Positions 1-23,046 of a stretch of DNA of 23,046 nt are shown here, one piece after another. Below the pieces are notes generated by a model, which was given only the letters and a program-made list of their open reading frames with translations, ran no database searches and had not been told where the DNA came from. The translations under genes and the position numbers were made by a program. Position 1 is the stretch's first letter. Every line of letters starts with the position of its first letter. The DNA is from a virus, in the IMG/VR virus record IMGVR_UViG_3300044729_003777, positions 1 to 23,046 of that record; one strand, given 5' to 3'.

Positions 1-878
1 CGTTTGACCGGAATCAGGCTCATCTCTCTAAGATTGTAGTCTCGAATAAAAGTTTCTTTGATGAAGTTGGCTTCTTCGTAGCTGATGTCAATGTCCAACT
101 CTACTCGCACATGCATCTTGGGCTTGAGAATCGCAGCAGCGTTGTCAATGAGGTTGGCCAAGCCAAACACACGATAGGTGGGTTGATCTGGCCAAGCATG
201 GAATTCAGGCTGCTTGCCCCACTCCATGATCATGACACCGCGGTCGTCGTCGCCCACATCAGCGTAGTTGTGTGGGAAACAGTTGCCAATATAGGTGATG
301 TTGTTTTTGGTTTGACGTTTGTGAAAGTGTCCGGTGAACACATGTTCAAACCCGTAAAAGTCTTCTCTACGCACATTGCCATGATCAGGCATGGCTACCA
401 TGGCATTCATGAGATAGCCAGGTAGTTCAAAATGCCCAAACATATACTTGGCGTTTAACTTAGTGATCCTTTTATAATCATCCCCAACCAGCCAAGGAGC
501 AATAACCACGTCGCCACTGATATACCAATCATTGCAAATATGAATGTTAGGTAAGTTCCGTGCCCATGCCACACTCTGGATATCGCGACGATCGCGATAA
601 TATAAGTCGTGATTGCCAGGAATAAAATAAACAGCATCAAAATTGTCATTCAGGTGCTCCAGAGCCTTGAGACTGTAGTCAAGAGTGACAATGTTGATAC
701 TGGCACGATGATTGTGCCAATCTCCAAGAAACAGTGCTGTTTCACAACCTTCCTCTCGAGCTTTGCTGGTGGCCCATTTCACAAATGACAAACAGTCCTC
801 GTTGTGCAAAGTGCTGTTGCTCTTGAGACCAAAATGGATGTCGGTAAACACCGCAGCTTTTTTGAATAGATTAGACAT
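1..878 (-). CDS. 47: gp47-like recombination endonuclease subunit (SbcD/Mre11 family), 3' end outside window
   Basis: This is the Mre11/SbcD-type metallophosphoesterase that, with ATPase gp46, forms the phage SbcCD-like nuclease. The family processes DNA ends for recombination-dependent replication and host DNA breakdown. Translation from 878 gives 292 complete codons with no stop before the edge; T4 gp47 is about 340 residues, so roughly 50 are missing. All metal-binding motifs are present in order: D13-x-H15, G52-D53, G88-N89-H90-D91, H149 in GHF, and G183-H184-F185-H186. The stretch LFLGDWHNHR and the GNHDLYYRD block resemble T4 gp47. The ATG lies inside the last codons of the upstream gene (ATGTCTAA, 8-base overlap) and has no clear Shine-Dalgarno, so translation is probably coupled. 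In related phages gp46 usually follows, which would put it beyond the left edge. Identity rests on motif order and neighbours; confidence is high. Confidence 0.9.
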   Translation of the reverse strand, partial: MSNLFKKAAVFTDIHFGLKSNSTLHNEDCLSFVKWATSKAREEGCETALFLGDWHNHRASINIVTLDYSLKALEHLNDNFDAVYFIPGNHDLYYRDRRDIQSVAWARNLPNIHICNDWYISGDVVIAPWLVGDDYKRITKLNAKYMFGHFELPGYLMNAMVAMPDHGNVRREDFYGFEHVFTGHFHKRQTKNNITYIGNCFPHNYADVGDDDRGVMIMEWGKQPEFHAWPDQPTYRVFGLANLIDNAAAILKPKMHVRVELDIDISYEEANFIKETFIRDYNLREMSLIPVK

Positions 879-1785
879 AGTCAAGCAATTTTACATGATC
901 AACGATGCGTTGAGCAAGTTGTTGATGACCAATTGGCCCAATGTGCTCGCCATCGGTGCCGCGATCAAATTGTCTCCAATCTGGTGTAGGACACCATTCT
1001 TGGTAGCCGCTGCATTCAAGTTCAATACTGTCCAACAACGGTGTGTTGCCTAGCAATGTCAGTAAAACAAATTTTGTGTTACTTTGCTTCAGATAAGTTG
1101 TGCCAATGTGTATGAATTCAAGATGCTCGTACAGCAGTTGATGATCATTGTAGTAGTCCAAGGCCGCAGCATCACTTTCGCATAACATGTGATCAACTGT
1201 CTCGTACTGATTGGATCGACGCAAACGTTCTGCACTGGTAGTGGCCCAGATCACAATGTCGTTGGGTGCGAATTTGGTCTGTAAAATATGATTGAGACTC
1301 CAGCGAGTGCTGGTGCCAGATTCCGCAATCACAGCAACATCTAGATTGAGTTGTTGTGCCACCAAAGTTGCAAAACGTTGATGTTCTGGTTGATGCAGAC
1401 CCACGCCCAAGGTATGGCTACAGCCAAACGCCCATACAGTGGCTCCGGGTGACTGCGCGGTCAAAAACCCGTTTTGATAGCACTGTTGTGCAGGCGGGTC
1501 AAAATTTTCAACAGTGCGAAAGTGCCTGACATGATTCAACAACTGTTGAGTTTTGCGTTTGGCTGCTAGATCTTGCCAGGGCACTTGGTCGCAGTATACC
1601 ACTCTGGATGCAGCAAGGCACACAGCCTTGAGCGTGTCAAAATCAACATCGCCCAAGGCTGTGTGATACACACCATTGAGAGACACAGCGTGACAGTTGT
1701 TGAGATCAATCAGCACACTGTGTCCAAAGTGCTGTGCGCACCACTCAGCCAGTTCCGGGCTGGTATCGCCCACTACAACAATCAT
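871..1785 (-). CDS. SGNH/GDSL-hydrolase-like protein with extra N-terminal domain
   Basis: This 304-residue protein has two parts. Residues 1-95 start with a beta strand (MIVVVGDTS) and look like a small alpha/beta domain of unknown role. From about 117 onward the SGNH-hydrolase plan appears: FGCSHT with candidate nucleophile Ser123, GTSTRWS near 157, a strand DIVIWATT near 176, and the C-terminal catalytic D-x-x-H (D278, H281) followed by GPIGHQQLA. SGNH enzymes are esterases or deacylases acting on lipids, acetylated sugars or peptidoglycan; the substrate here cannot be read. The GDSL motif is altered to GCSH, which occurs in divergent members. ATG at 1785 is preferred over a TTG one codon upstream because it overlaps the gp55 stop as TGATG. 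The gene lies between a sigma factor and a nuclease, so early or middle expression is likely. It could modify host or phage glycans, but that is inference. Confidence 0.72.
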   Translation of the reverse strand: MIVVVGDTSPELAEWCAQHFGHSVLIDLNNCHAVSLNGVYHTALGDVDFDTLKAVCLAASRVVYCDQVPWQDLAAKRKTQQLLNHVRHFRTVENFDPPAQQCYQNGFLTAQSPGATVWAFGCSHTLGVGLHQPEHQRFATLVAQQLNLDVAVIAESGTSTRWSLNHILQTKFAPNDIVIWATTSAERLRRSNQYETVDHMLCESDAAALDYYNDHQLLYEHLEFIHIGTTYLKQSNTKFVLLTLLGNTPLLDSIELECSGYQEWCPTPDWRQFDRGTDGEHIGPIGHQQLAQRIVDHVKLLDYV

Positions 1786-2687
1786 CAATAGTTCATGTCA
1801 ATGGATGTGACCGGACCAGACACATCTGCAGACAACTTGCCAGAATTTTGTCTTGTCCAGGAAGGGTTGAGACCGTTGAGTTCCAGTATATCGTCTCTGA
1901 TGCTTTGATTCTTTTTTTCTATGTTGAGTATGCGTGTGAAACTGTTGGTTATGGCTGCTGTGTAATATGCAAATGGGTTTTGCGATTTTGACTCGTCAAA
2001 TTGCAGGCCAATCTGACTCAACTGTAACAGAGCCTGCCCACGCATTTCTTCGTTGTAGGTGTAACCGCGCCAGTTTGAACGTGTGGCATAGCGTTCACAC
2101 AGTTTCATAAACATCATGGCCAGTTTTTTGGTCATTTGTCCATGCTCTCTGCAAAATTGGCCAGATTCAAGATCGCCCTGCCAGTGACTACGTCCCACGA
2201 TGTAGGTTGTCTTGTCTTCGGTGATGCGATAGTGTTCAAAGGGCGGAAAATTCAACCGAACATGATTGGTGTCTAGCACAGGCTCATCCAGCAGCTCTTG
2301 CAAGCCATCATCTTGTTCGGTGTCTTCAAGATCCAGAATGTCTTCCAGTCTGCGTCGTTTGAGTTCGGCCTTGCTGACTTTTTTTGGTGCTCTGGGAATG
2401 TGATCCCAGGTTGTTATTCTAAACACAATGTCAGTGTTGGGAATTTTTTTGGGATCAATCACAGTGCCAGTTTCGCGTTTGATGCGATCAGCACGGTTGC
2501 GTCGAGCCTCGGCTATGGTGCGTTGATTGATGCGATCCAGACTGGGCAATATGATGTCAAATTGATGGTCCAGATCACGATCACGAAACCAACAGTAGCT
2601 ATTTTTGCTGAGATGTATTTCTTTCAATATATCGCGGTTGTTGAGATAGTTCACCTTGGGCGAACTCTTGGGCAGGGGTGTGGTCAT
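1785..2687 (-). CDS. 55: Late-transcription sigma factor gp55-like
   Basis: gp55 is the phage sigma factor that directs host RNA polymerase to TAAATA-type late promoters. The N-terminal block PKVNYLNNRDILKEI (residues 10-24) resembles the T4 gp55 start, and the core sigma-region-2 homology lies at about 184-262: NWRGYTYNEEMRGQAL, FDESKSQNPFAYYTAAI, then a basic helix. The last six residues, SIDMNY (295-300), match the pattern of the T4 gp55 tail SLDFLY, which contacts the gp45 sliding clamp. The protein has 300 residues against about 185 in T4. The excess is an insertion of roughly 150 residues (about 26-180), rich in charged residues and containing WDHIPRAPKKVSKAELKRRR. It is the first gene of the leftward operon, with AGGAG 12 bases before the start and a sigma70-like promoter upstream. 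Identification is strong; the role of the insertion is unknown. Confidence 0.9.
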   Translation of the reverse strand: MTTPLPKSSPKVNYLNNRDILKEIHLSKNSYCWFRDRDLDHQFDIILPSLDRINQRTIAEARRNRADRIKRETGTVIDPKKIPNTDIVFRITTWDHIPRAPKKVSKAELKRRRLEDILDLEDTEQDDGLQELLDEPVLDTNHVRLNFPPFEHYRITEDKTTYIVGRSHWQGDLESGQFCREHGQMTKKLAMMFMKLCERYATRSNWRGYTYNEEMRGQALLQLSQIGLQFDESKSQNPFAYYTAAITNSFTRILNIEKKNQSIRDDILELNGLNPSWTRQNSGKLSADVSGPVTSIDMNY

Positions 2688-2716: not shown

Positions 2717-2744
2717 AGTGTAGCATTTTTGCAACAGATGTCAA
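2717..2744 (-). promoter_or_regulatory. Sigma70-type promoter for the gp55 operon
   Basis: On the minus strand TTGACA (2744-2739) is followed after 16 bases by TACACT (2722-2717), a perfect -35 and a 4/6 -10 element. It points to gp55, whose ATG is 30 bases downstream of the -10. Use of the host sigma factor would let the late sigma gene be made before late transcription. An AGGAG ribosome-binding site (2704-2700) lies in the leader. The spacing is one short of the ideal 17 and no start site is known, so confidence is moderate. Confidence 0.5.
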
Positions 2745-2755
2745 CCTTTTTCTAA

Positions 2756-2784
2756 AACTGCGCCGTTAAAAATCCGAGTAAATA
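2756..2784 (+). promoter_or_regulatory. Candidate late promoter with upstream dyad box, copy 1
   Basis: The box AACTGCGCCGTT (2756-2767) is followed by an 11-base spacer and TAAATA (2779-2784), the core of T4-type late promoters read by gp55. The box is a near-perfect inverted repeat, AACnGCGCnGTT. The same box, spacing and TAAATA recur before gp6. A start about six bases after TAAATA would fall on the AGAGGA ribosome-binding site (2789-2794), giving a leader of roughly 13 bases. It would drive the whole rightward baseplate operon. The promoter call is strong by position; the function of the box is inference. Confidence 0.7.
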
Positions 2785-2802
2785 ACATAGAGGAACATTA
2801 TC

Positions 2803-10024: not shown

Positions 10025-10402
10025 ATGGCACAGACCTACATTGGATTCAACACAATAGATCAATTCAAAAAATTCACGCTGACAGGCGATGCATTGATCA
10101 AACGTGACCTTATCAATGCTTTCAACATTCGTCAAGGGTCACTGCCGGGGCGTCCTGGCTATGGCACAGTGATCTGGGACTATCTATTTGAAAACAAAGT
10201 AGAAGACCTACAGTTTGAACTCAACAGAGAAATTCAACGTGTGGCCGGAAGCGATCCCCGAGTGTATATCAGCGACAGTCAGGTGTACCCACAAGACAAT
10301 GGAATTCTCATAGAAATACAGCTCACCATAGTGCCAGGCACTGACGTTGAGAGACTGGCCATATTTTTTGATCTCACCAGTCGCTCAGCAACCTACGTAT
10401 AA
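10025..10402 (+). CDS. 25: Baseplate wedge protein gp25-like
   Basis: gp25 joins gp6 and gp53 in the wedge and starts sheath assembly; the fold is shared with contractile injection systems and type VI secretion TssE. The protein has 125 residues (T4: 132). Visible signatures are DLINAFNIRQGSLPGRPGYG (about 30-49), TVIWDYLFEN, and the helix ELNREIQRVAGSDPRV followed by VYPQDNGILIEIQLT. Family members carry the same R-x-G-x-x-x-x-x-P-x-x-G arrangement and a C-terminal beta hairpin. GTGAGG at 10011-10016 lies 8 bases before the ATG. The gene is separated from the previous one by 21 bases, and its stop codon overlaps the first bases of the promoter box in front of gp6. Confidence 0.97.
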   Translation: MAQTYIGFNTIDQFKKFTLTGDALIKRDLINAFNIRQGSLPGRPGYGTVIWDYLFENKVEDLQFELNREIQRVAGSDPRVYISDSQVYPQDNGILIEIQLTIVPGTDVERLAIFFDLTSRSATYV

Positions 10403-10429
10403 CTGCGCCGTTTTTGCCGTCGATAAATA
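10401..10429 (+). promoter_or_regulatory. Candidate late promoter with upstream dyad box, copy 2
   Basis: AACTGCGCCGTT (10401-10412) lies 11 bases before TAAATA (10424-10429). Box sequence and spacing are identical to the copy at 2756-2784, while the spacer bases differ. The box starts within the gp25 stop codon. A start about six bases downstream of TAAATA would coincide with AGAGG (10435-10439), the ribosome-binding site of gp6, leaving a leader of about 10 bases. It would give gp6 and the giant gene their own late promoter. Confidence 0.7.
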
Positions 10430-10444
10430 AAAAAAGAGGCTAAA

Positions 10445-13400: not shown

Positions 13401-13897
13401 CTGTGACTGAGCCACCGTTGCCCACAATTGACGAACTCAGCACAGAATATCAAGGTTTGCAAGAATACAAAATGTTGAGCGACAACATCATCTTGAACAG
13501 TGTGATTTTCAAGCCCTTGTTTGGCGCCAAGGCAGCCAATGAACTTCGTGCCACCATCAAGGTCATCAGAGCTCAAGGCAGCACAGCCAGCACCAGTGAA
13601 ATCAAAAGTTCGGTGGTGGCAGCCATGAATGATTATTTCAGCATTGACAAGTGGAACTTTGGTGACACTTTCTTTTTCAGCGAGTTGGCTGGCTATCTAC
13701 ACAGAGAATTGGGCAGCATAATTAGTTCTGTAGTACTGGTGCCGCTGGACCAACAGAAGTTCTTTGGAGATCTGTACGAAATTAGATCAGCACCCAGTGA
13801 GATTTTTGTTAACGCCGCAACTATTGACAACATTGACGTGATCGAGGCATTGACCAGTACCAACTTGCGCACTGCACCAGGTAGTGGAGTTATCTAA
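10445..13897 (+). CDS. 6: Baseplate wedge protein gp6-like (enlarged)
   Basis: gp6 forms the inner ring that links baseplate wedges. The 1150-residue protein is much longer than T4 gp6 (660). The N-terminal part has LYYPETFNDYIESSEFIALL and DLNTRENYIDTAERRDSVVK (about 40-100), with ITLIFGDGVFSEIPVGTFR near 337-355 (the FGDG motif of this superfamily). It continues with IKQRAPARYYTQDRMVNGED (about 416-435) and a conserved block through about 480. The C-terminal part keeps FKPLFGAKAANELRATIKVI, DYFSIDKWNFGDTFFFSELA and FGDLYEIRSAPSEIFVN. Between roughly 495 and 1010 lies extra sequence, including an aspartate-rich loop D832-x-D-x-D-G-x-x-D840 that resembles calcium-binding repeats. AGAGG precedes the ATG by 5 bases. 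The stop overlaps the next start as TAATG. Confidence 0.95.
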   Translation: MAITTRQTAIFGVEDWKQIYQTYREADFQSYDFETLRKSFVDYLRLYYPETFNDYIESSEFIALLDVIAFMGQALAFRTDLNTRENYIDTAERRDSVVKLANLVSYTAKRNIAAEGFLKVFSVVTTENVFDYQGTNLANFTVNWADPTNPDWQEQFTTILNSALVDTQRVGRPANRQNILGIRTDEYGINLVPGFLPVVPYNATVDGVVMPFEAVTSTSEGANFLYEPAPQAGQPFNILFRNDSLGFASPNTGYFFMFKQGVLQNQDFNLAERISNRTVNINIEGVNNKDFWLFQLDNVGNVSRQWEYSENIYTAAGEQLGTSLRPLFSVTSRTNDQITLIFGDGVFSEIPVGTFRTYVRASNGLQYIINPAEMQNVQLSISYISRTGNLETITFTCGITQPVSNSQAREPLEQIKQRAPARYYTQDRMVNGEDYNLFPYTQYSSILKSKALNRASIGTSRYLDLVDNTGKYSSTNTFGSDGALWREDVTPTILFSWVNRNEIADAITNQVQPQLAESTLQQFYYANFPRQTVNTGATAGFTWQQSTTLANETTGFFRNATFSQDWPNGAPIAVGPTTSTVFRYVVVGSLIKFVAPAGYYFDTNNKLQPGTATGENEKDSIWASPQAIVGTGDNNGLGNLTTGVGPVTLNNFVPTGAIVDTIIPLFVTDLPLSLETAMAEQILLFRNFGIGYDNDGTITGTPYTWYLITSTNLDQDAAFSLANAGSTAGTNLDASWLVQFVVENQNYTITFRGLSYNFGSVLQTRFFFYGDQQIYDSRTGTIIKDFVNILAVNTRPDSTQTLSGNVPVTITGQPVESDGYVDDFQVLVGFRDVDNDGVPDNPDFFDEIVAPSVTPNQKLIFLQQTIDFDNLQRYLLTEPGVVNSDYPTLDALELVKTEWSPGQVFYAYSQELFYQLSINAAGVRTLTQVSGYIARTGRQSLYYQYRHNAPLSARIDPGTTNIIDLYIVTQSYYTAYQNWIKDTTGTVTEPPLPTIDELSTEYQGLQEYKMLSDNIILNSVIFKPLFGAKAANELRATIKVIRAQGSTASTSEIKSSVVAAMNDYFSIDKWNFGDTFFFSELAGYLHRELGSIISSVVLVPLDQQKFFGDLYEIRSAPSEIFVNAATIDNIDVIEALTSTNLRTAPGSGVI

Positions 13898-16800
13898 TGG
13901 CAACTGTAAAAACTGTTGATTTTCTTCCAGAAATTTTTCAAACTGACACCAATCGCCAGTTCTTGGCAGCTACCCTGGATCAATTGGTACAGGAACCACG
14001 GTTCAAAAAGACCCAAGGTTTTATTGGACGCAGAGTGGGACCCGGTGTCAACCCCAATGATCGATATGTGGTGGAAATTGACGAAACACGTACCAATTAT
14101 CAACTTGAACCTGGTGTAATCAGTCTCAAACCCGACACTGACATTATCAAAGATGTAATAACCTATCCAGGTATCAATGATGCAATAACTTTTCAAGGCG
14201 GCAACGGCGACAGACCGGATCGTCTCTACACCAGTGAATATTACACTTGGGATCCGTTTGTAAACTTTGATACCTTTGTAAACTTCAGTCAGTATTTTTG
14301 GCTGCCCAACGGCCCTGACTCAGTTGATGTCCGGGCTTCGCAGATTCCCTTCAATGCAAATTTCAATGTAACAAGAGAAAACGGTGTTTACACATTTGAC
14401 GGGGTCAGCGGCAATAATCCCACTATTACCCTGGTGCGTGGCGGAAACTATACGTTTTCTGTAGCACAAAATGACAAAGAAACCATCAATTTTAGAGTCC
14501 AAAACAGCACAGACACAGCTTATCTCGTAGACGGTCAACGCAATCCCACACTCACATTGGCTCGCGGCAACACCTATGTGTTCAACCTCACCACCAATGG
14601 AGTGTTTCCGTTTTGGATCAAATCTCAGCCCGTGACCGGCACAGTTGAGTCGTACGATCAGGGTGTGCTGAGAAACGGTGCAGTCACTGGATTGGTAACT
14701 TTCACAGTACCGCGCGATGCGCCTGACACACTGTATTACATTGCAGAAAACAGACAGGCAATGCAAGGGGTGTTGAACATAGTTGACAATGTGTCTGGAA
14801 CTGGTCCAGGTTTTTGGATTCAGGCAGCACCAGGAGTATCAGGTCAACTGCCTTCAACTCCAAACATCAGCAGTCGTGATGTGTTTGGGGTAACCAACAA
14901 TGGTGAAGATCTAGGAGTTGTGACTTTCAACGTTCCTTTCAAAGAAGGACAAAACTTTTTCTACAATCTCACCAATTTTGGCACAGCAGACCTCTTGACC
15001 ACCCTGCAGTTCAGTCAGATCAACAACGTCAGCGTCACTCAGTTCATTGATACCTATGGTGGCATTGATGGCATCACGGATCTCAACGGTAGAACATTGG
15101 TGTTCACAAACCCCGAGCTTGACGCCGCCGTGGGCGGTTGGGAAGACATTTCGCTGTATGATCCCTTGGTTCAAACTGTTGCCAACAATGGCTTGATTGG
15201 TAGTTTTGACTCAACAACTTTCAGTCAGACCACACCAATACCTTTTGAAAATCGCTATCAACTTTGGCAAATCAATTACACCACCACTGACAATGTTGAG
15301 TACATCACTCTGCAAAAAATCACAGACATCCCGGAACTTTCAAAATTTACTGTGAAATTTGGTGCGGAATTCAGTAACACACAGTGGTACAAAGACACCA
15401 CTGGGTTTATCAAATCTGTGCCTTTGCTGTCAGCAGCTCAGGACACTTTGTACTATCAAGATGGTACTGATCCTGACATTTTTGGACAAATCAAATTGGT
15501 TGATCAAGGACAATCAACCACAATTTTCATTGATGAAATAGTTGGAAAAAGCAACTACACCAGTCCAAATGGTGTGGTCTTCAGCACAGGATTGAAAGTC
15601 AAATTCACTGGTGATGTTGTGCCATCAACCTTTGCCAGCAACACTGTTAGCATATCTTACACAGGAACCGAAGCTGGCACAAATTACATCACTGCGGTTG
15701 ATGACACAGACCAACTCTATGTTGGTCAGCGCATTGTGTTTTCTTCACCAACCCTGGGTGGATTGGTTGCTGGTCAAAATTATTATGTGAGATCAATCGC
15801 GGCCAACGGTTTGAAATTCACAGTAAGTTCACAGCCTGGTGGAACAACTACGTTGTTGCAAAATGGCTCAGGCAATGCCACAGCCACGGCTATCAGCTTG
15901 AGAGAATATTATGTGGCCGGCGTTGGTACTGCAATTGAACTTTTGCCAGTGACAAATTTTGTTGTGCCCGAAACCTATGCCAGTGACTTTGACACAGACA
16001 CTGTGGCTGTTGAGCCCTTGGAGCTTGATTATCTAACCATTGACCGTGCCAGCAAAGATCTAAACGCCTGGACACGAAGCAATCGCTGGTTCCATCTTGA
16101 CGTTATCAACGCCACGGCAGAATATAACAACACTGTGGCAGTGCTGGACAATGCTTATCGCGCCAAGCGTCCAATCTTGCAATTTAGACCCGGCTTCAAA
16201 CTGTGGAACATGGGTACCGAAGGCAAGCAGCCAGTAGACATCATTGATTTTGAAGAGACTGACGCATTTAGCAACATTGAGGGAGCCACAAGTTACACAG
16301 TGGATGGTTACACTTTTGTAGAAGGAACTCGTGTAATTTTTGCTGCCGACAATGACATTGAAGTGCGCAACAAAATTTATGTTGTCAGCTTTATATTGCC
16401 TGACTCTCAGTCACCTTTGATAGCACAGCCTATCATCAATTTGACCTTGGCCACAGATGGCGAAGTTTTGATAGACCAGTCCACGGTTGTCACAGCCGGT
16501 GAATCTACCCAAGGCAAAACCTATTGGTACGATGGCGAACAGTGGATTCTTGCACAACAAAAAACCAGCATACAACAGGCTCCGTTGTTCAACATCTATG
16601 ACAGTCAAGGTGTGAGCTTTGGAGACACAACCAAATATCAATCATCAAACTTTGTCGGCAGCAAACTGTTTAGCTATGCAGTGGGGGATACCAGCCTGGT
16701 TGATCCTGTGCTGCAATTTGCCTTGGACTATCTCAACATTGAAAACGTTGGAGACATTGTGTTTGAAAACAATCTCTACGTGGACAGTTTTGTTTATGTG

Positions 16801-19800
16801 GTAGACAATGCCAGTGTTACTCTAGACATCAGCAGCGGTGCAGCACGAGAATATGCATCACGCACAGTATTTCAAAAACGCATAGGTTGGCAAAATGCTG
16901 TGGTCACAAGCCAAACCTATCAACAGTTTAGATTCAATTTCAACAATCAGGCCCTGAATCTTGACGTTGCAGCCAACAGCCAAATCACAAGTCCGGTGCC
17001 TGTGATAAAAATCTATGTTGGCGCACAGTTTTTACCGCCCAGTCAGTACACTTACACCACCACCGCCAACAGCACTGAAATCAATTTGTTGCAGGACTAC
17101 CCACTTGATGAAATCATTGAAGTGCTGGTATTGAGTGACCAAACCAGTCAAACTGCATTCTATCAAGTACCTATCAATCTTGAAAGCAATCCACTCAATG
17201 CCAACAGTCCTAGATTCACCCTAGGCACTGTGAGAACGCACTATCAAAGTATCTGTGAAAATTTAACCACGTTGTCTGGTCCGGTAAATGGTGCCAACAA
17301 CACCCGTGATCTTGGAAATCTTGTTCCCTATGGTTTGATAATTCTACAACAAAGTGCACCATTGACTTTGGCCGGGTATTTCATGCGCAGCAAAGAATAC
17401 AATATTTTTGCAGCGTTGAAATACAACACTCAAGAATACCTAAAGTACAAAGCCACACTGCTGGATGCTGTGTTGCGTCAAAACATCAGCTTCAAGACCA
17501 CGGGCGAAATCTTGGATGAAGCCATTCAAGAATTAACCTTGGGCAAAATTGAATCACAACCGTTTTACTGGAGCGACATGCTGCCCAGTGGTATACCGAC
17601 CTACAGCAACAGCTACACTGTGAGCTTCACTACCTCATCAGTGTTCGACACAGTGCAGGTCTACAACTTCACCAGTTCAAATTATCTTGGACTGTTGGTA
17701 TACGTCAATGGTCAACTGCTCACACGCGGAGTAGATTACACCGTGGCCACAGACGGCCCCAGGGTCACTATTGACACGCCATTGACACCGGGTGATGTTG
17801 TGACCATTAACGAATACTCCCAAACTTACGGCAGCTTTGCACCCAACACCCCAACCAAAATGGGCTTGTATCCGGCCTGGCGTCCTGCTGTGGTACCAAT
17901 CCAAACCAGCACAGGTATCAAATTGGCCACACTGGGTCATGATGGAAGCACTACGCCGCTTTATGGTGACTTGCGAGATCAGGTGCTGTTGGAATTTGAA
18001 ACCAGAATCTATGACAATCTAAAGTTGGATGGAAATCCAGTTCCGCTGACTGAGGCCAATGTGCTACCTGGGCAATTTAGAGACACAGGATTCACCTATC
18101 AAGAAACCAACAATATCTTGGCACAGGATTTCCTCAGCTACTGCGGTTGGAACAAACTTGATTTCCGTACACAGCAGTACAATGTCAACAACACATTCAC
18201 ATACAACTACAGTGGTTCACAGAATCGCTTGGACAATCAACCCTTGTTGGGCGCCTGGCGCGGCATCTATCGATTCACCTACGATGTAGAACAGCCACAG
18301 TACACTCCCTGGGAAATGCTGGGACTGAGCATTGAACCTGATTGGTGGGAAGAAAGATATGGCCCAGCACCTTACACCAGCGACAACTTGGTGTTGTGGG
18401 ATGATCTTGAAGCTGGCTATGTTGCGGATCCCGTGGCTCCATATTTTCTCACAGAATATGCCAGACCCGGATTGACTGAAATCATACCCACAGGCAGTGA
18501 GGGCGAGCTGCTGCCGCCCAATCAGTCGGTCATGGGCTTTTTCAACGAAACCCAGTTTCAAAAGAGCTGGGCTGTGGGCGATGGCGGACCAGTAGAAGCA
18601 TCGTGGTGGAACAGCAGTGCATATCCTTTTGCAGTGATGCGCCTGTTGGCAGTCACTCGCCCAGCCAAGTTTTTTGCACTGTTTGCTGACCGTGATCGTT
18701 ACAAATTCAATCTTGACTATCAGCAATATCTCTATGATGATCGTTATCGTCTAGACGCCAACGGAATTCAAGTGTATGGCAACGGCGTCAGCAAGGCCAG
18801 TTACATCAACTGGATTGTTGACTACAACAGAATCTCTGGTCTTGACAGCACACAGAGTCTGACAGATGACTTGGCCAATCTAGATGTTAGACTGTGCTAT
18901 CGCATGGCCAGCTTCAGCGACAAGCAGTACATCAAGGTTGTTACAGAAAAAAGCAGCCCCAGCAGTACCAACACTGCCTTGATAATTCCTGACGAAAGCT
19001 ATGATCTTTTGGTATACAAAAATCAGCCGTTCGGACAAACCGTATACAGCAGTGTCACAGTTCAAAAAACAGCCAGTGGTGGATTCAGCGTGTCTGGATA
19101 CAGCACTTTACAACCATACTTCAACACACTGAAAAGTGGCGGCGGCGGTCGTTTGCAAAACTTCACTCTTGGCAATATATCGGTTCAAATACCCACACTG
19201 TATACCGACAATGTTGTGCAGGTACCATACGGTACTGTGTTTGCCAATGCCGGCGCGGTAGTTGACTTTTTGTTGTCCTATGGAAAATACCTTGAAGGTC
19301 AAGGTCTCAGTTTCACCAACACTGCCAACGGTTATGTGTTGGATTGGACCAGAATGGCCTATGAATTTTTGTACTGGGCTCAACAAGGATGGAGTAATGA
19401 GGCTATCATCAACCTCAATCCCTTGGCAGACAAATTGGTAGTGACCAAAGAAAAGGCCGTGGTTGATTCTATTCGAACTCAGACAGTTGAGACACAGTTG
19501 TTGGATCAAAACAGTCAGGATTTTGCCACAAGAAATCTCAACATTGTTAGAATTGACAACACATTCATAATACAAAGTTTGGTTACTCAAGCAGTGTCAT
19601 ATGCCGAACTTAATTTTACGTCATTTGAACACATCATTGTTTTGAAAAATCAAAGTGTGTTTGGCGACCTAATATACGACCCCACCACAGGCGATCGTCA
19701 GAGTCGCTTGAATCTAATTGCTGTGACCAGTGTTGACTGGAATGGTACTGTAAATGCGCCAGGCTTTATTCTCAATCAAAACAATGTAGAAGAATGGACC

Positions 19801-22800
19801 GGACTGAGAACTTACACCAAGGGCGAAATCGTTCTATACAAAAACGTGTACTGGAGCGCCTTGACCATTGTGCAGCCCAGTGCCAACTTCAACTTCAATG
19901 ACTGGGTACAGAGCGATTACGAACAGATTCAACTGGGACTGTTGCCCAACATTGCCAACAAAGCAGATCAGCTGGCCAACAGCTACAACATCAATTTGGC
20001 CAATATTGAGAGTGACAACGATCTGTTGTCTTATGGTCTAATTGGTTATCGTCCACGCCAATACATGGCCGCTCTGAATCTTGACGATGTCAGCCAACTC
20101 AATGTTTACCGTCAGTTCTTGGGAACCAAAGGAACTGTGCTGGCAGCAGAGTTGTTCAAGGGCGCAAACTTCAGCAAAGAAACTGCTGATTACGATATCT
20201 ATGAAAACTGGGCAGTGCAGCGAGCAGTGTACGGAGCCAACGCCAACCGAAGCTTTGTTGAACTGAGACTGAACCGTGGTCTGCTGAACAGCAATCCCAG
20301 TATTGTCAAGGTAACCACACCTGAAGAAGTCACTGAAGCAGACCAAAATATTCAATTGGGCGCGGTGTGGCGACAGAGCTACAAACTGACATCGCCTGAC
20401 TTTTTGCCAGTGACCTTTGACCTGCCCACAGACACTGCTCTGCCCAATGCTGGATATGTGAGCTTGGATGATGCTGATCTCACAGTATTTGACATAGAAG
20501 ACGACGAAGAATTCGCTGCCAGTCTTGACAGTATTCAAGTGGGAACCAGTATTTGGGTAGCCAAAATCAATCAGTATGACTGGAACATATACCGTGCGCA
20601 ACCAGTGCCCGGAACCATTGTTCATGTGTGCGACAATCTTGACAGCACCAGCAGAGTTGTATTTTCCAAACAACACGGACTGTCTGCAGGTCAAAGACTG
20701 ATTATCAAACAGTTTGATATTGAAGTTGATGGTGTGTACACTGTGGTGTCTGTGCTGAATTTGACCACAGTCAACATTGAGTTCCAGTTCGCAGGTAGTC
20801 GTACCGTGGTTGACGGCGATGGCATTGGATTTACTTTGCAGACTCAACGTGTGGCGCAGGCCAGCGACGTATTGAACTTGCCTTATGCCAACGAAATTCA
20901 GGCTGGTGCAAGGGTTTGGGCCGACGATGACGGGACCGGTCACTGGGCTGTGTTTGAAAAACAGGATCCGTTCACTGCTATCACAGTGTTGAATCCCGAT
21001 CCCATGACCACGTTCCAAAATGAGAACTACGGTCACAGTGTGGCACAGGCGCAGAATCGTACTGCGCTTTTGGTTGGTGCGCCGTTTTATACCAGAAGTG
21101 CTGTGCAACACGGCGGTGTATATGTCTATGTCAAGAGCGACAGTGATCAGTATACTCCTGTGACTCCGTTGCCCAACAGTGTCAATGCTGTGTTGACACT
21201 GGATGTTACTGGCGTGCGCGGTTACGGCAACGCAGTGGATTTTGGCAATCAAACCTGGGCTGTGGCCGGCGCCAGTCGCAGTCTTGGCCCTGCGTCAGAA
21301 GCAGACAACGGATATGCTGCTGTAATTTACAGAGATCCAGATCTTGGTGAACCGGGTATTGTGCCCTTTGCCCAGTGGCAACTGCTGACACAGCCTGGCA
21401 CAACTCCCAGCAGCACCCCAGGCGCGGGAGAATTTGGCTACAGCGTGGCCATGAGCACTGATGAACGTTGGTTGTATGTTGGAGCTCCTGGCATCAGCAA
21501 TGTTCATGCCTATGGGCGAGTAGACTGGGAACACCAGTTCCATACAGCCACAGGCGATGGAGTCACTGATACCTTTTTGATCTCTGACAAAATACAGATC
21601 AATCAAGACACACAAATCACAGTCACAGTCAATGAAACACCGCAGTTCTTGACCGTGGATTACACTGTGGATGGTACTTTTGACAATGTCATCTTTGTTA
21701 CACCTCCTGCGCTTGGTGCAAGAATACGTATTCAACGCATCAATCAGCAACGATTGGATTATGGCATCTACTATGGTGTAACTCAGTCAGCTACGTCTGG
21801 CGGCGGGTCAGACGCTGTGTTCACCATTGAGCGAGTGCGTGGCCAAGTTGGACAACCAAGTGCTGTCAGCGGCTTTGTTGGTGTCAATGGCGGTGGATCA
21901 GGCTACGCAGTGAGTAATACAATCACAATTGATGCAGCGGATTTTGATGGCGGTTCATCTCCTGCCAATGACATCACACTCACAGTAACACAGGTTGGTG
22001 CGCTTGGTGAATTGGAAGCATTTACAATTGCTTACACACCGCCGGCTCTACAGACAGTGTTCAATCTTGGAACCTATTTCTTCACAGCGACCAATATTGA
22101 CAGCTTCAGTGTGTATTACCAAGATATATTGCTACGACCCAACATTGATTATTCTTTCAATACCGGTACTCAAGATTTAACATTTACTACAATACCATCA
22201 GCAGGCTCAGAAATAATTGTCCGAGCTGAAAGCTATTTTAGATATGTTTCTTCATTGCAGGTAGTGGGACTTACTCCCAGTGATCGCATGGGTACCAGCG
22301 TTGCAACCAGCACTGACGGTACTCAGATATTGTCTGGGTCTCCTGATTCTACCGTTTACAGCGCAGTTGAAGCTGGCACGGTGTATGTGTTTGATCGCAA
22401 TGTGCAGCGTTTTATTGTCAATGCTGCTGCTGACAATCCAACATTCACTGTGTTAGGTCTTCCAGCAGTGGCTCCGGTGGGGGTCACTGTCAACAACGAA
22501 CGCTGGATCAATCAAGACGACAGTGTGATAGGTGGTGTTCACACATTCATCTGGGATGGATCAAATGGGTTCACTCTGAACGGATCTGTCAACGTTGGTG
22601 ACGAAGTCTTGATTGAAACCAACAATTTTGCTCTGTTGGATCAGTTGCACCAACAAACTGTGGCAGAATTCTCCAATTTTGGATCAGCAGTTGACCTATG
22701 CGAAAACAATTGCAGCGTGTATGTGGGCGAGCCCAACAGCAGCGTACAGGTTTACAAAGGTGGTATTGTTGAGCGCAGTGAGAACCAGTCAAGACTCTAT

Positions 22801-23046
22801 GGCACCATAACCAGTCTCAACCCCGCACCCACACTCACAAATGGTCACACCCTGCGTGTCAACAACATTGATGTGCCAGTACAACCTGATCAATCTTTGG
22901 CCGGCTTGGCTGCTGCAATAAACAGCACAGTGCCCAATGTCACTGCCACAGTCAGCGCCAGCACAGGACTGATGACACTCACTGTGACCAACAGTGCAGC
23001 CGCAGATCCTTTCAACAAGGTCAATGTAGCACCGGGCAGCGTTGGT
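13897..23046 (+). CDS. Giant virion structural protein in the gp7 position, 3' end outside window
   Basis: An uninterrupted frame of 3050 codons runs from ATG 13897 to the right edge without a stop. It starts MATVKTVDFLPEIFQTDTNR and overlaps the gp6 stop as TAATG, so translation is probably coupled. Recognisable parts in order: a conserved N-terminal segment (1-150); a cupredoxin-like region (about 170-300); long beta-rich regions; a helical block near 1110-1230 with NLVPYGLIILQQSAPL; a Trp-rich block near 1455-1530 with PWEMLGLSIEPDWWEERYGP; FG-GAP-like motifs near 2377, 2442, 2513, 2797 and 2925; and a flagellin-hook-like segment near 2980-3040. Modules with the pattern VNGxxLxxxxDYT recur near 1035, 1265, 2576 and 2738. 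T4 has gp7 (1032 residues), the peripheral wedge initiator, at this spot. A role combining wedge structure with surface or adhesion functions is inferred from position and domains. No tail-fibre assignment is possible. Confidence 0.88.
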   Translation, partial: MATVKTVDFLPEIFQTDTNRQFLAATLDQLVQEPRFKKTQGFIGRRVGPGVNPNDRYVVEIDETRTNYQLEPGVISLKPDTDIIKDVITYPGINDAITFQGGNGDRPDRLYTSEYYTWDPFVNFDTFVNFSQYFWLPNGPDSVDVRASQIPFNANFNVTRENGVYTFDGVSGNNPTITLVRGGNYTFSVAQNDKETINFRVQNSTDTAYLVDGQRNPTLTLARGNTYVFNLTTNGVFPFWIKSQPVTGTVESYDQGVLRNGAVTGLVTFTVPRDAPDTLYYIAENRQAMQGVLNIVDNVSGTGPGFWIQAAPGVSGQLPSTPNISSRDVFGVTNNGEDLGVVTFNVPFKEGQNFFYNLTNFGTADLLTTLQFSQINNVSVTQFIDTYGGIDGITDLNGRTLVFTNPELDAAVGGWEDISLYDPLVQTVANNGLIGSFDSTTFSQTTPIPFENRYQLWQINYTTTDNVEYITLQKITDIPELSKFTVKFGAEFSNTQWYKDTTGFIKSVPLLSAAQDTLYYQDGTDPDIFGQIKLVDQGQSTTIFIDEIVGKSNYTSPNGVVFSTGLKVKFTGDVVPSTFASNTVSISYTGTEAGTNYITAVDDTDQLYVGQRIVFSSPTLGGLVAGQNYYVRSIAANGLKFTVSSQPGGTTTLLQNGSGNATATAISLREYYVAGVGTAIELLPVTNFVVPETYASDFDTDTVAVEPLELDYLTIDRASKDLNAWTRSNRWFHLDVINATAEYNNTVAVLDNAYRAKRPILQFRPGFKLWNMGTEGKQPVDIIDFEETDAFSNIEGATSYTVDGYTFVEGTRVIFAADNDIEVRNKIYVVSFILPDSQSPLIAQPIINLTLATDGEVLIDQSTVVTAGESTQGKTYWYDGEQWILAQQKTSIQQAPLFNIYDSQGVSFGDTTKYQSSNFVGSKLFSYAVGDTSLVDPVLQFALDYLNIENVGDIVFENNLYVDSFVYVVDNASVTLDISSGAAREYASRTVFQKRIGWQNAVVTSQTYQQFRFNFNNQALNLDVAANSQITSPVPVIKIYVGAQFLPPSQYTYTTTANSTEINLLQDYPLDEIIEVLVLSDQTSQTAFYQVPINLESNPLNANSPRFTLGTVRTHYQSICENLTTLSGPVNGANNTRDLGNLVPYGLIILQQSAPLTLAGYFMRSKEYNIFAALKYNTQEYLKYKATLLDAVLRQNISFKTTGEILDEAIQELTLGKIESQPFYWSDMLPSGIPTYSNSYTVSFTTSSVFDTVQVYNFTSSNYLGLLVYVNGQLLTRGVDYTVATDGPRVTIDTPLTPGDVVTINEYSQTYGSFAPNTPTKMGLYPAWRPAVVPIQTSTGIKLATLGHDGSTTPLYGDLRDQVLLEFETRIYDNLKLDGNPVPLTEANVLPGQFRDTGFTYQETNNILAQDFLSYCGWNKLDFRTQQYNVNNTFTYNYSGSQNRLDNQPLLGAWRGIYRFTYDVEQPQYTPWEMLGLSIEPDWWEERYGPAPYTSDNLVLWDDLEAGYVADPVAPYFLTEYARPGLTEIIPTGSEGELLPPNQSVMGFFNETQFQKSWAVGDGGPVEASWWNSSAYPFAVMRLLAVTRPAKFFALFADRDRYKFNLDYQQYLYDDRYRLDANGIQVYGNGVSKASYINWIVDYNRISGLDSTQSLTDDLANLDVRLCYRMASFSDKQYIKVVTEKSSPSSTNTALIIPDESYDLLVYKNQPFGQTVYSSVTVQKTASGGFSVSGYSTLQPYFNTLKSGGGGRLQNFTLGNISVQIPTLYTDNVVQVPYGTVFANAGAVVDFLLSYGKYLEGQGLSFTNTANGYVLDWTRMAYEFLYWAQQGWSNEAIINLNPLADKLVVTKEKAVVDSIRTQTVETQLLDQNSQDFATRNLNIVRIDNTFIIQSLVTQAVSYAELNFTSFEHIIVLKNQSVFGDLIYDPTTGDRQSRLNLIAVTSVDWNGTVNAPGFILNQNNVEEWTGLRTYTKGEIVLYKNVYWSALTIVQPSANFNFNDWVQSDYEQIQLGLLPNIANKADQLANSYNINLANIESDNDLLSYGLIGYRPRQYMAALNLDDVSQLNVYRQFLGTKGTVLAAELFKGANFSKETADYDIYENWAVQRAVYGANANRSFVELRLNRGLLNSNPSIVKVTTPEEVTEADQNIQLGAVWRQSYKLTSPDFLPVTFDLPTDTALPNAGYVSLDDADLTVFDIEDDEEFAASLDSIQVGTSIWVAKINQYDWNIYRAQPVPGTIVHVCDNLDSTSRVVFSKQHGLSAGQRLIIKQFDIEVDGVYTVVSVLNLTTVNIEFQFAGSRTVVDGDGIGFTLQTQRVAQASDVLNLPYANEIQAGARVWADDDGTGHWAVFEKQDPFTAITVLNPDPMTTFQNENYGHSVAQAQNRTALLVGAPFYTRSAVQHGGVYVYVKSDSDQYTPVTPLPNSVNAVLTLDVTGVRGYGNAVDFGNQTWAVAGASRSLGPASEADNGYAAVIYRDPDLGEPGIVPFAQWQLLTQPGTTPSSTPGAGEFGYSVAMSTDERWLYVGAPGISNVHAYGRVDWEHQFHTATGDGVTDTFLISDKIQINQDTQITVTVNETPQFLTVDYTVDGTFDNVIFVTPPALGARIRIQRINQQRLDYGIYYGVTQSATSGGGSDAVFTIERVRGQVGQPSAVSGFVGVNGGGSGYAVSNTITIDAADFDGGSSPANDITLTVTQVGALGELEAFTIAYTPPALQTVFNLGTYFFTATNIDSFSVYYQDILLRPNIDYSFNTGTQDLTFTTIPSAGSEIIVRAESYFRYVSSLQVVGLTPSDRMGTSVATSTDGTQILSGSPDSTVYSAVEAGTVYVFDRNVQRFIVNAAADNPTFTVLGLPAVAPVGVTVNNERWINQDDSVIGGVHTFIWDGSNGFTLNGSVNVGDEVLIETNNFALLDQLHQQTVAEFSNFGSAVDLCENNCSVYVGEPNSSVQVYKGGIVERSENQSRLYGTITSLNPAPTLTNGHTLRVNNIDVPVQPDQSLAGLAAAINSTVPNVTATVSASTGLMTLTVTNSAAADPFNKVNVAPGSVG

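Follow-up and report, generated by a model that had tools for sequence, protein, structure and literature searches.

A gp55-type late sigma factor with a folded domain at the sigma-NCR position, present throughout one lineage of jumbo phages

The late factor gp55 is the textbook example of a minimal sigma factor. In phage T4, its residues N13, R57, F86, Y97, and T99 contact the -10-like element and R114 the template strand, while E70, D74, and E77 contact the beta' clamp helices (PMC7892883). The late promoters of T4 have no upstream element (PMC2988020). Among bacterial sigma factors, E. coli sigma70 carries the non-conserved region (NCR, residues 128-372), which contacts the toe of the beta' clamp and includes an acidic loop that is mobile (PMC7822876). 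The protein described here is a gp55 late sigma factor with a previously undescribed folded domain at the position of the NCR, shared by a whole phage lineage; within the open-access literature, no paper describing such a gp55 domain was found.

The window, i.e., the whole stretch of 23,046 nucleotides that was analysed, encodes a 300-residue protein (Table 1) that matches the profile phrog_12791, annotated as "sigma factor for late transcription", with an E-value of 1.4e-75. The match to the T4-type profile phrog_234 is limited to residues 181-281 (E 9.1e-24), and in a sequence search of the PDB, T4 gp55 was the sole match, in two stretches corresponding to the NYVNNKELLQAI N-terminal motif and to the sigma-2 domain. 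Indeed, residues 12-25 (VNYLNNRDILKEIH) align with the T4-type NYVNNKELLQAI, with N17, the equivalent of T4 N13, present in all 193 insertion-bearing homologues, and residues 187-281 align with the T4 sigma-R2 homology domain, so that the likeness to T4 gp55 seen by eye in the first-pass annotation is confirmed for both segments. The sigma-R2 homology fold, made of H1-H4 and the helix-loop-helix extension, is present in the protein (VIA Z 13.6 with 122 residues aligned to 7d7c_F; Foldseek rank 1, probability 1.00). Neither the whole protein nor the insert by itself had a Pfam or NCBIfam match above cut-off.

The gene is flanked on one side by a gp47-like nuclease gene and on the other by diverging structural and baseplate genes, and a similar neighbourhood is found in several jumbo phages, among them CBB, 121Q, the PA5oct-like MIJ3, and Vibrio 2.275.O. 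Between gp55 and the gp47-like gene lies an ORF of 305 residues (871-1788, minus strand) without a PHROG match at E 0.01, at a place where most of the examined jumbo isolates lack a gene. At the other end, an ORF of more than 3050 residues (13897-23046, plus strand), likely coding for a giant virion protein, runs off the window. Given that the gp55 gene has a sigma70-like promoter, the host polymerase probably expresses it ahead of late transcription.

Table 1. Coordinates of the features of the gp55 locus and of the late-promoter-like sites in the window.
Feature	Position	Strand	Basis or remarks
gp55-type late sigma factor gene, 300 aa	1785..2687	-	phrog_12791 1.4e-75; phrog_234 9.1e-24; VIA Z 13.6 to 7d7c_F
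N-terminal helix, residues 12-25, counterpart of T4 gp55 H1	2613..2654	-	alignment
Inserted domain, residues 26-186	2130..2612	-	missing from 153 insertionless homologues; AlphaFold2
Insert core A, residues 26-98; S27, K28, D44, I46, R90, H96, P98 conserved	2394..2612	-	pLDDT 95-98; conservation
Charged loop, residues 99-140: basic 99-113 (+7), acidic 114-140 (-12)	2268..2393	-	pLDDT 53-72; charge count
AELKRRR, residues 107-113	2349-2369	-	within basic 99-113
Insert core B, residues 141-186; N146-F147, P149, H152, V164, S167-H168-W169, G171, G176, F178, G183 conserved	2130..2267	-	pLDDT 93-98; conservation
Sigma domain 2 and helix-loop-helix, residues 187-281	1845..2129	-	promoter-contact residues kept; T4 D74, E77 replaced by Q218, L221
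Sigma70-like promoter of the gp55 gene, TTGACA-N16-TACACT	2717..2744	-	sequence; arrangement repeated upstream of gp55 in close relatives
Late-promoter-like site of gene 2803: box AACTGCGCCGTT 2756-2767, 11-nt spacer, TAAATAA 2779-2785	2756..2785	+	
Late-promoter-like site of the gp6 gene: box AACTGCGCCGTT 10401-10412, 11-nt spacer, TAAATAA 10424-10430	10401..10430	+	kept in G001, G003

The first-pass annotation had placed an insertion of about 150 residues at positions 2148-2612, and this stands with slightly wider bounds, given that alignment with jumbo-phage and T4-type homologues sets it at residues 26-186. The excess over T4 gp55 between the N-terminal helix and sigma domain 2 is about 140 residues, and the domain itself has about 150. 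Between the conserved N17 of the N-terminal motif and N205 of domain 2, the spacing ranges from 164 to 190 residues in the 193 insertion-bearing homologues and from 41 to 67 in 153 insertionless ones, with no intermediates, both sets having been fetched by sequence patterns that rare intermediates could escape. As the earlier annotation had proposed, the structure of the protein alone was predicted, and the insert is mostly folded: the AlphaFold2 model, built with 111 sequences, has a pLDDT of 93-98 at residues 26-100 and 145-190, and of 53-72 at residues 101-140. The isolated insert of a relative without the charged loop, predicted alone, reaches a pLDDT of 95.0 and a pTM of 0.86. From these models it can be said with confidence that the bulk of the insertion is predicted to be a compact, autonomously folded alpha/beta domain. 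Comparison of the insert alone with known structures by Foldseek and VIA gave a best E of 0.37 and a best Z of 3.6, which means that no fold was recognised and does not prove a new one; a PDB sequence search with the insert profile gave a best E of 1.6, and no known sequence family was recognised in the searches. Four histidines of the insert, H96, H152, H168, and H182, are highly conserved, and three of them were lost together in Vibrio phage 2.275.O. A zinc site formed by the four was considered and discarded, as H182 varies independently in other members.

The charged stretch that the first-pass annotation saw between the two T4-like motifs is present, including the basic helix AELKRRR. This helix, however, falls in the least certain part of the model, where it adjoins an acidic stretch, and is absent from 63% of the family. 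Approximately 30 residues of the loop are specific to the clade of the window, with residues 111-140 gapped in 63% of the 193 relatives, while the basic patch around K102-K106 is kept more widely than the loop and is shortened in 121Q and CBB. Predicted disorder, together with variation in relatives that keep the upstream box discussed below, is thus a property of the basic-helix segment and not of the conserved core of the insert.

A tree built on the shared core groups all insertion-bearing proteins into a single clade, with a support of 1.0. This clade contains RaK2, 121Q, CBB, PA5oct, Atu_ph07, and many environmental jumbo phages, and the domain is found in all of its members. The gp55 of Campylobacter phage CP220 (255 aa) was examined as a further candidate and has a short spacer and a C-terminal extension only, with no such domain. 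The first-pass annotation had also asked whether the insert occurs as a stand-alone gene in other phages, which was never observed: a tblastn search of 50,697 phage records found it in 56-57 records, at one place in each, and all matches fall in a gene that matches full-length gp55, except for a partial match in Salicola SCTP-2. Likewise, none of the 362 insert-bearing ORFs in the fetched loci clearly lacks the domain-2 motif. A strict pattern missed this motif in 63 of them and a looser one in a single protein (L580), the C-terminus of which is typical of the family.

The residues that T4 gp55 uses to read the promoter are retained. N17, R203, F230, Y241, T243, and K258, the counterparts of T4 N13, R57, F86, Y97, T99, and R114, are each found in 95-100% of the 193 insertion-bearing sequences, and the positions matching N13, F86, Y97, T99, and R/K114 are conserved in insertionless homologues as well, while T4 L54 and H95 are replaced by Y and F in the window protein. 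The contacts to the beta' clamp helices show a different pattern. At the positions of T4 E70, D74, and E77, the insertionless homologues have D or E in 153/153, D in 153/153, and E in 147/153, versus E in 193/193, D in 7/193, and E in 0/193 of the insertion-bearing ones. In the window protein E214 is kept, and Q218 and L221 replace the acidic residues at T4 positions 74 and 77; this protein therefore lacks the features of the insertionless phrog_234 proteins, having an H1-H2 spacing of 187 (versus near 46) and no acidic residues at 74 and 77. Both the insertion and the acidic losses fall on a single long branch (1.66) and, for this reason, their correlation amounts to a single event. Furthermore, of the 37 columns with a conservation of 95% or more among insertionless proteins, 20 changed on this same branch. 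The acidic losses therefore do not stand out statistically, even if D74, E77, and R109 are the positions within these 20 at which a charge was clearly lost. The loss of D74 and E77 with the DNA-contact residues kept suggests a remodelling of the clamp contact in the presence of the domain.

The position of the domain was computed by structural alignment. With VIA, residues 10-153 of 7d7c_F match residues 14-284 of the model, running through the insert, and residues 90-446 of sigma70 (6ca0_F) match residues 6-257, a span that includes the NCR. In the latter alignment the insert lies between the region-1.2-like helix and region 2.1, i.e., in the same place as the sigma-NCR. A polymerase- or DNA-binding role for the insert, as first proposed, is reasonable. 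The reading preferred here is that this is an NCR-like domain. According to it, the sigma factor retains a T4-style head for reading TAAATA, and in one lineage of jumbo myoviruses an alpha/beta domain lies between the region-1.2-like helix and sigma domain 2, at the place of the NCR. This domain would sit on the outer face of sigma domain 2, next to the beta' clamp and to the upstream edge of the -10 element, where it may supply an extra contact to RNA polymerase and so compensate for two lost contacts out of the three that acidic residues of T4 gp55 make with the beta' clamp helices. The flexible basic and acidic loop added in the clade of the window would be reminiscent of the acidic loop of the E. 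coli sigma-NCR, although the basic part could equally touch DNA. While the position, the fold confidence, the distribution, and the residue changes come from computation, we infer the polymerase contact and the compensation, and hold them tentatively, at a little short of an even balance, because so many columns changed on the same branch and the evolutionary event is single. Against an NCR-like role stands the fact that, in Foldseek and VIA comparisons, the insert has no fold similarity to the NCR or to any solved structure; absence of the sigma-NCR among the matches of the isolated insert is, nonetheless, not proof of a different fold. A regulatory or sensing domain that responds to a ligand, a metal, or a protein partner, with no role at the polymerase, would agree with the conservation of the four histidines, with the joint loss of three of them in Vibrio 2.275.O, and with the lack of similarity to polymerase-binding domains. 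It is nevertheless an unlikely explanation, as the insert is located beside the beta' clamp and the variation of H182 alone argues against a strict metal site.

The coactivators of T4 late transcription were also searched for. The gp33 profile (phrog_254) finds T4, KVP40, S-RIM2, and DLP6, and gives no confident match in 17 insertion-bearing long records, Phosso being marginal at 0.026. With the gp45 profile, the only match in insertion-bearing records is a weak one in Vibrio 2.275.O (1e-5). The C-terminal tail of gp55, which binds the clamp in T4, has a mean pairwise identity of 0.19 in the family and no clear sliding-clamp-binding motif, and the clamp itself was not identified. The authors of the CBB genome reported an ATAAATA late motif and no homologues of gp33 or gp45 (PMC5259590). 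These observations would fit an insert that replaces gp33 and gp45 in a lineage where late transcription needs neither. Yet the clamp loader gp44 is clear in most insertion-bearing records and, therefore, a divergent clamp probably exists in these phages; a later review assigns a gp33 orthologue to group 2 jumbo phages (PMC7824862), and gp33 binds the beta flap, which is distant from the part of sigma where the insert lies, so that such a replacement appears improbable. The same low standing applies to a broader version, in which the insert would be a new RNA-polymerase-binding module that took over part of the contact between sigma-2 and the clamp helices and removed the need for gp33 and gp45. 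If true, jumbo phages would have T4 late transcription in a one-protein form.

The window contains three TAAATA sites, two of which read TAAATAA (2779 and 10424). TAAATA is the commonest of 15 permuted hexamers at 18-45 nt upstream of ORFs in the close relatives G001 and G003 and in 121Q, and such sites are, as judged from sequence, promoter-like and candidate late promoters. Both TAAATAA sites of the window follow AACTGCGCCGTT at exactly 11 nt, an arrangement for which permuted boxes average 0.01 cases, and the same two boxed promoters are present in G001 and G003. The extra upstream box noted in the first-pass annotation is thus real at both TAAATAA sites, but marks a small subset of TAAATA sites: each of these two long relatives has just 2 boxed sites, and in a 343-kb close relative they are 2 of about 38-44 promoter-like TAAATA sites. 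Genome-wide scans of G001, G003, G007, G010, and 121Q did not show the box as a general late-promoter feature. It is an imperfect dyad found on few structural-gene promoters per genome, and reads AAAACTAGTTTT or AACTACGTAGTT in other clades. In the distant relatives, boxed TAAATA sites occur at 157832, 199308, and 127941 of G007 and at 136003 of G010, ahead of a baseplate wedge gene, a gene for a virion structural protein, and others whose function is unknown, which suggests a small boxed regulon.

At the promoter that diverges from gp55, 58 of the 97 independent clusters have A/T half-sites at exactly this spacing, versus at most 10 at any shift. This regularity, the fixed spacing in the window, and the basic stretch at residues 99-113 are what could be expected if the insert were a sequence-specific DNA-binding module that reads the dyad at some late promoters, as had been proposed. 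However, most late-promoter-like sites have no box; the half-sites are kept in 37 of 73 clusters without the charged loop and its basic helix; they are missing at this promoter in CBB, 121Q, Vibrio 2.275.O, and BF-like contigs, which all carry the domain; and a dyad suggests a dimeric binder, yet there is a single sigma per polymerase. A box-reading insert is thus very unlikely. Because few sites are boxed, the box is kept without the basic helix, and it is missing in domain-bearing phages, the domain neither requires nor explains the box, and the first-pass interpretation is only partly supported. More plausible, though still somewhat doubtful, is that the box belongs to a separate factor that acts at few late promoters independently of the insert, such as a DsbA-like protein or another dimeric regulator. 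A DsbA-like protein is a candidate binder because T4 DsbA binds two late promoters at A/T-rich sites that overlap them (PMC2988020); the box is a dyad confined to few promoters and, in distant clades, rich in A/T, and DsbA profile matches were found in 16 of 17 insertion-bearing long records. Against this, the profile has no match in G003, which carries the box, and DsbA has weak specificity in T4. The DsbA-like protein occurs in nearly all of the long relatives G001-G011 and in jumbo isolates. In T4, dsbA precedes gene 33; the gene that follows its counterpart in G001 and G010 was considered as a gp33 and rejected, being a much longer ORF that resembles a DNA polymerase.

Compared with known systems, the window protein has in common with T4 gp55 (PDB 7d7c/7d7d, phrog_234) the N-terminal motif, the sigma-R2 fold, the residues that contact the -10-like element, the helix-loop-helix, and the TAAATA sequence. 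T4 gp55 differs in having no inserted domain, all three acidic clamp-helix residues, and a C-terminal clamp-binding motif, whereas in the window protein other residues stand in place of D74 and E77, and the tail lacks conservation. The phrog_12791 proteins of phages of the RaK2, 121Q, CBB, PA5oct, and Atu_ph07 type are its own family and share its architecture, including the inserted domain, the clade of the window being set apart by approximately 30 extra residues (basic helix and acidic stretch) inside the insert. T4 gp33 (phrog_254) is a separate protein on the beta flap for which no similarity to the insert was found, although the insert could serve a related coactivation purpose. The sigma-NCR of E. 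coli sigma70 occupies the same place, from region 1.2 to region 2.1, and has a flexible acidic loop as does the clade of the window, while neither fold nor sequence similarity to the insert was found. In this lineage of large phages, gp55 has an extra domain where bacterial primary sigma factors carry one, its clamp-contact surface is altered, and no gp33 can be recognised. How a sigma factor can be remodelled while its promoter-reading head stays the same can be tested here, and CBB, 121Q, and PA5oct are available in culture for such work.
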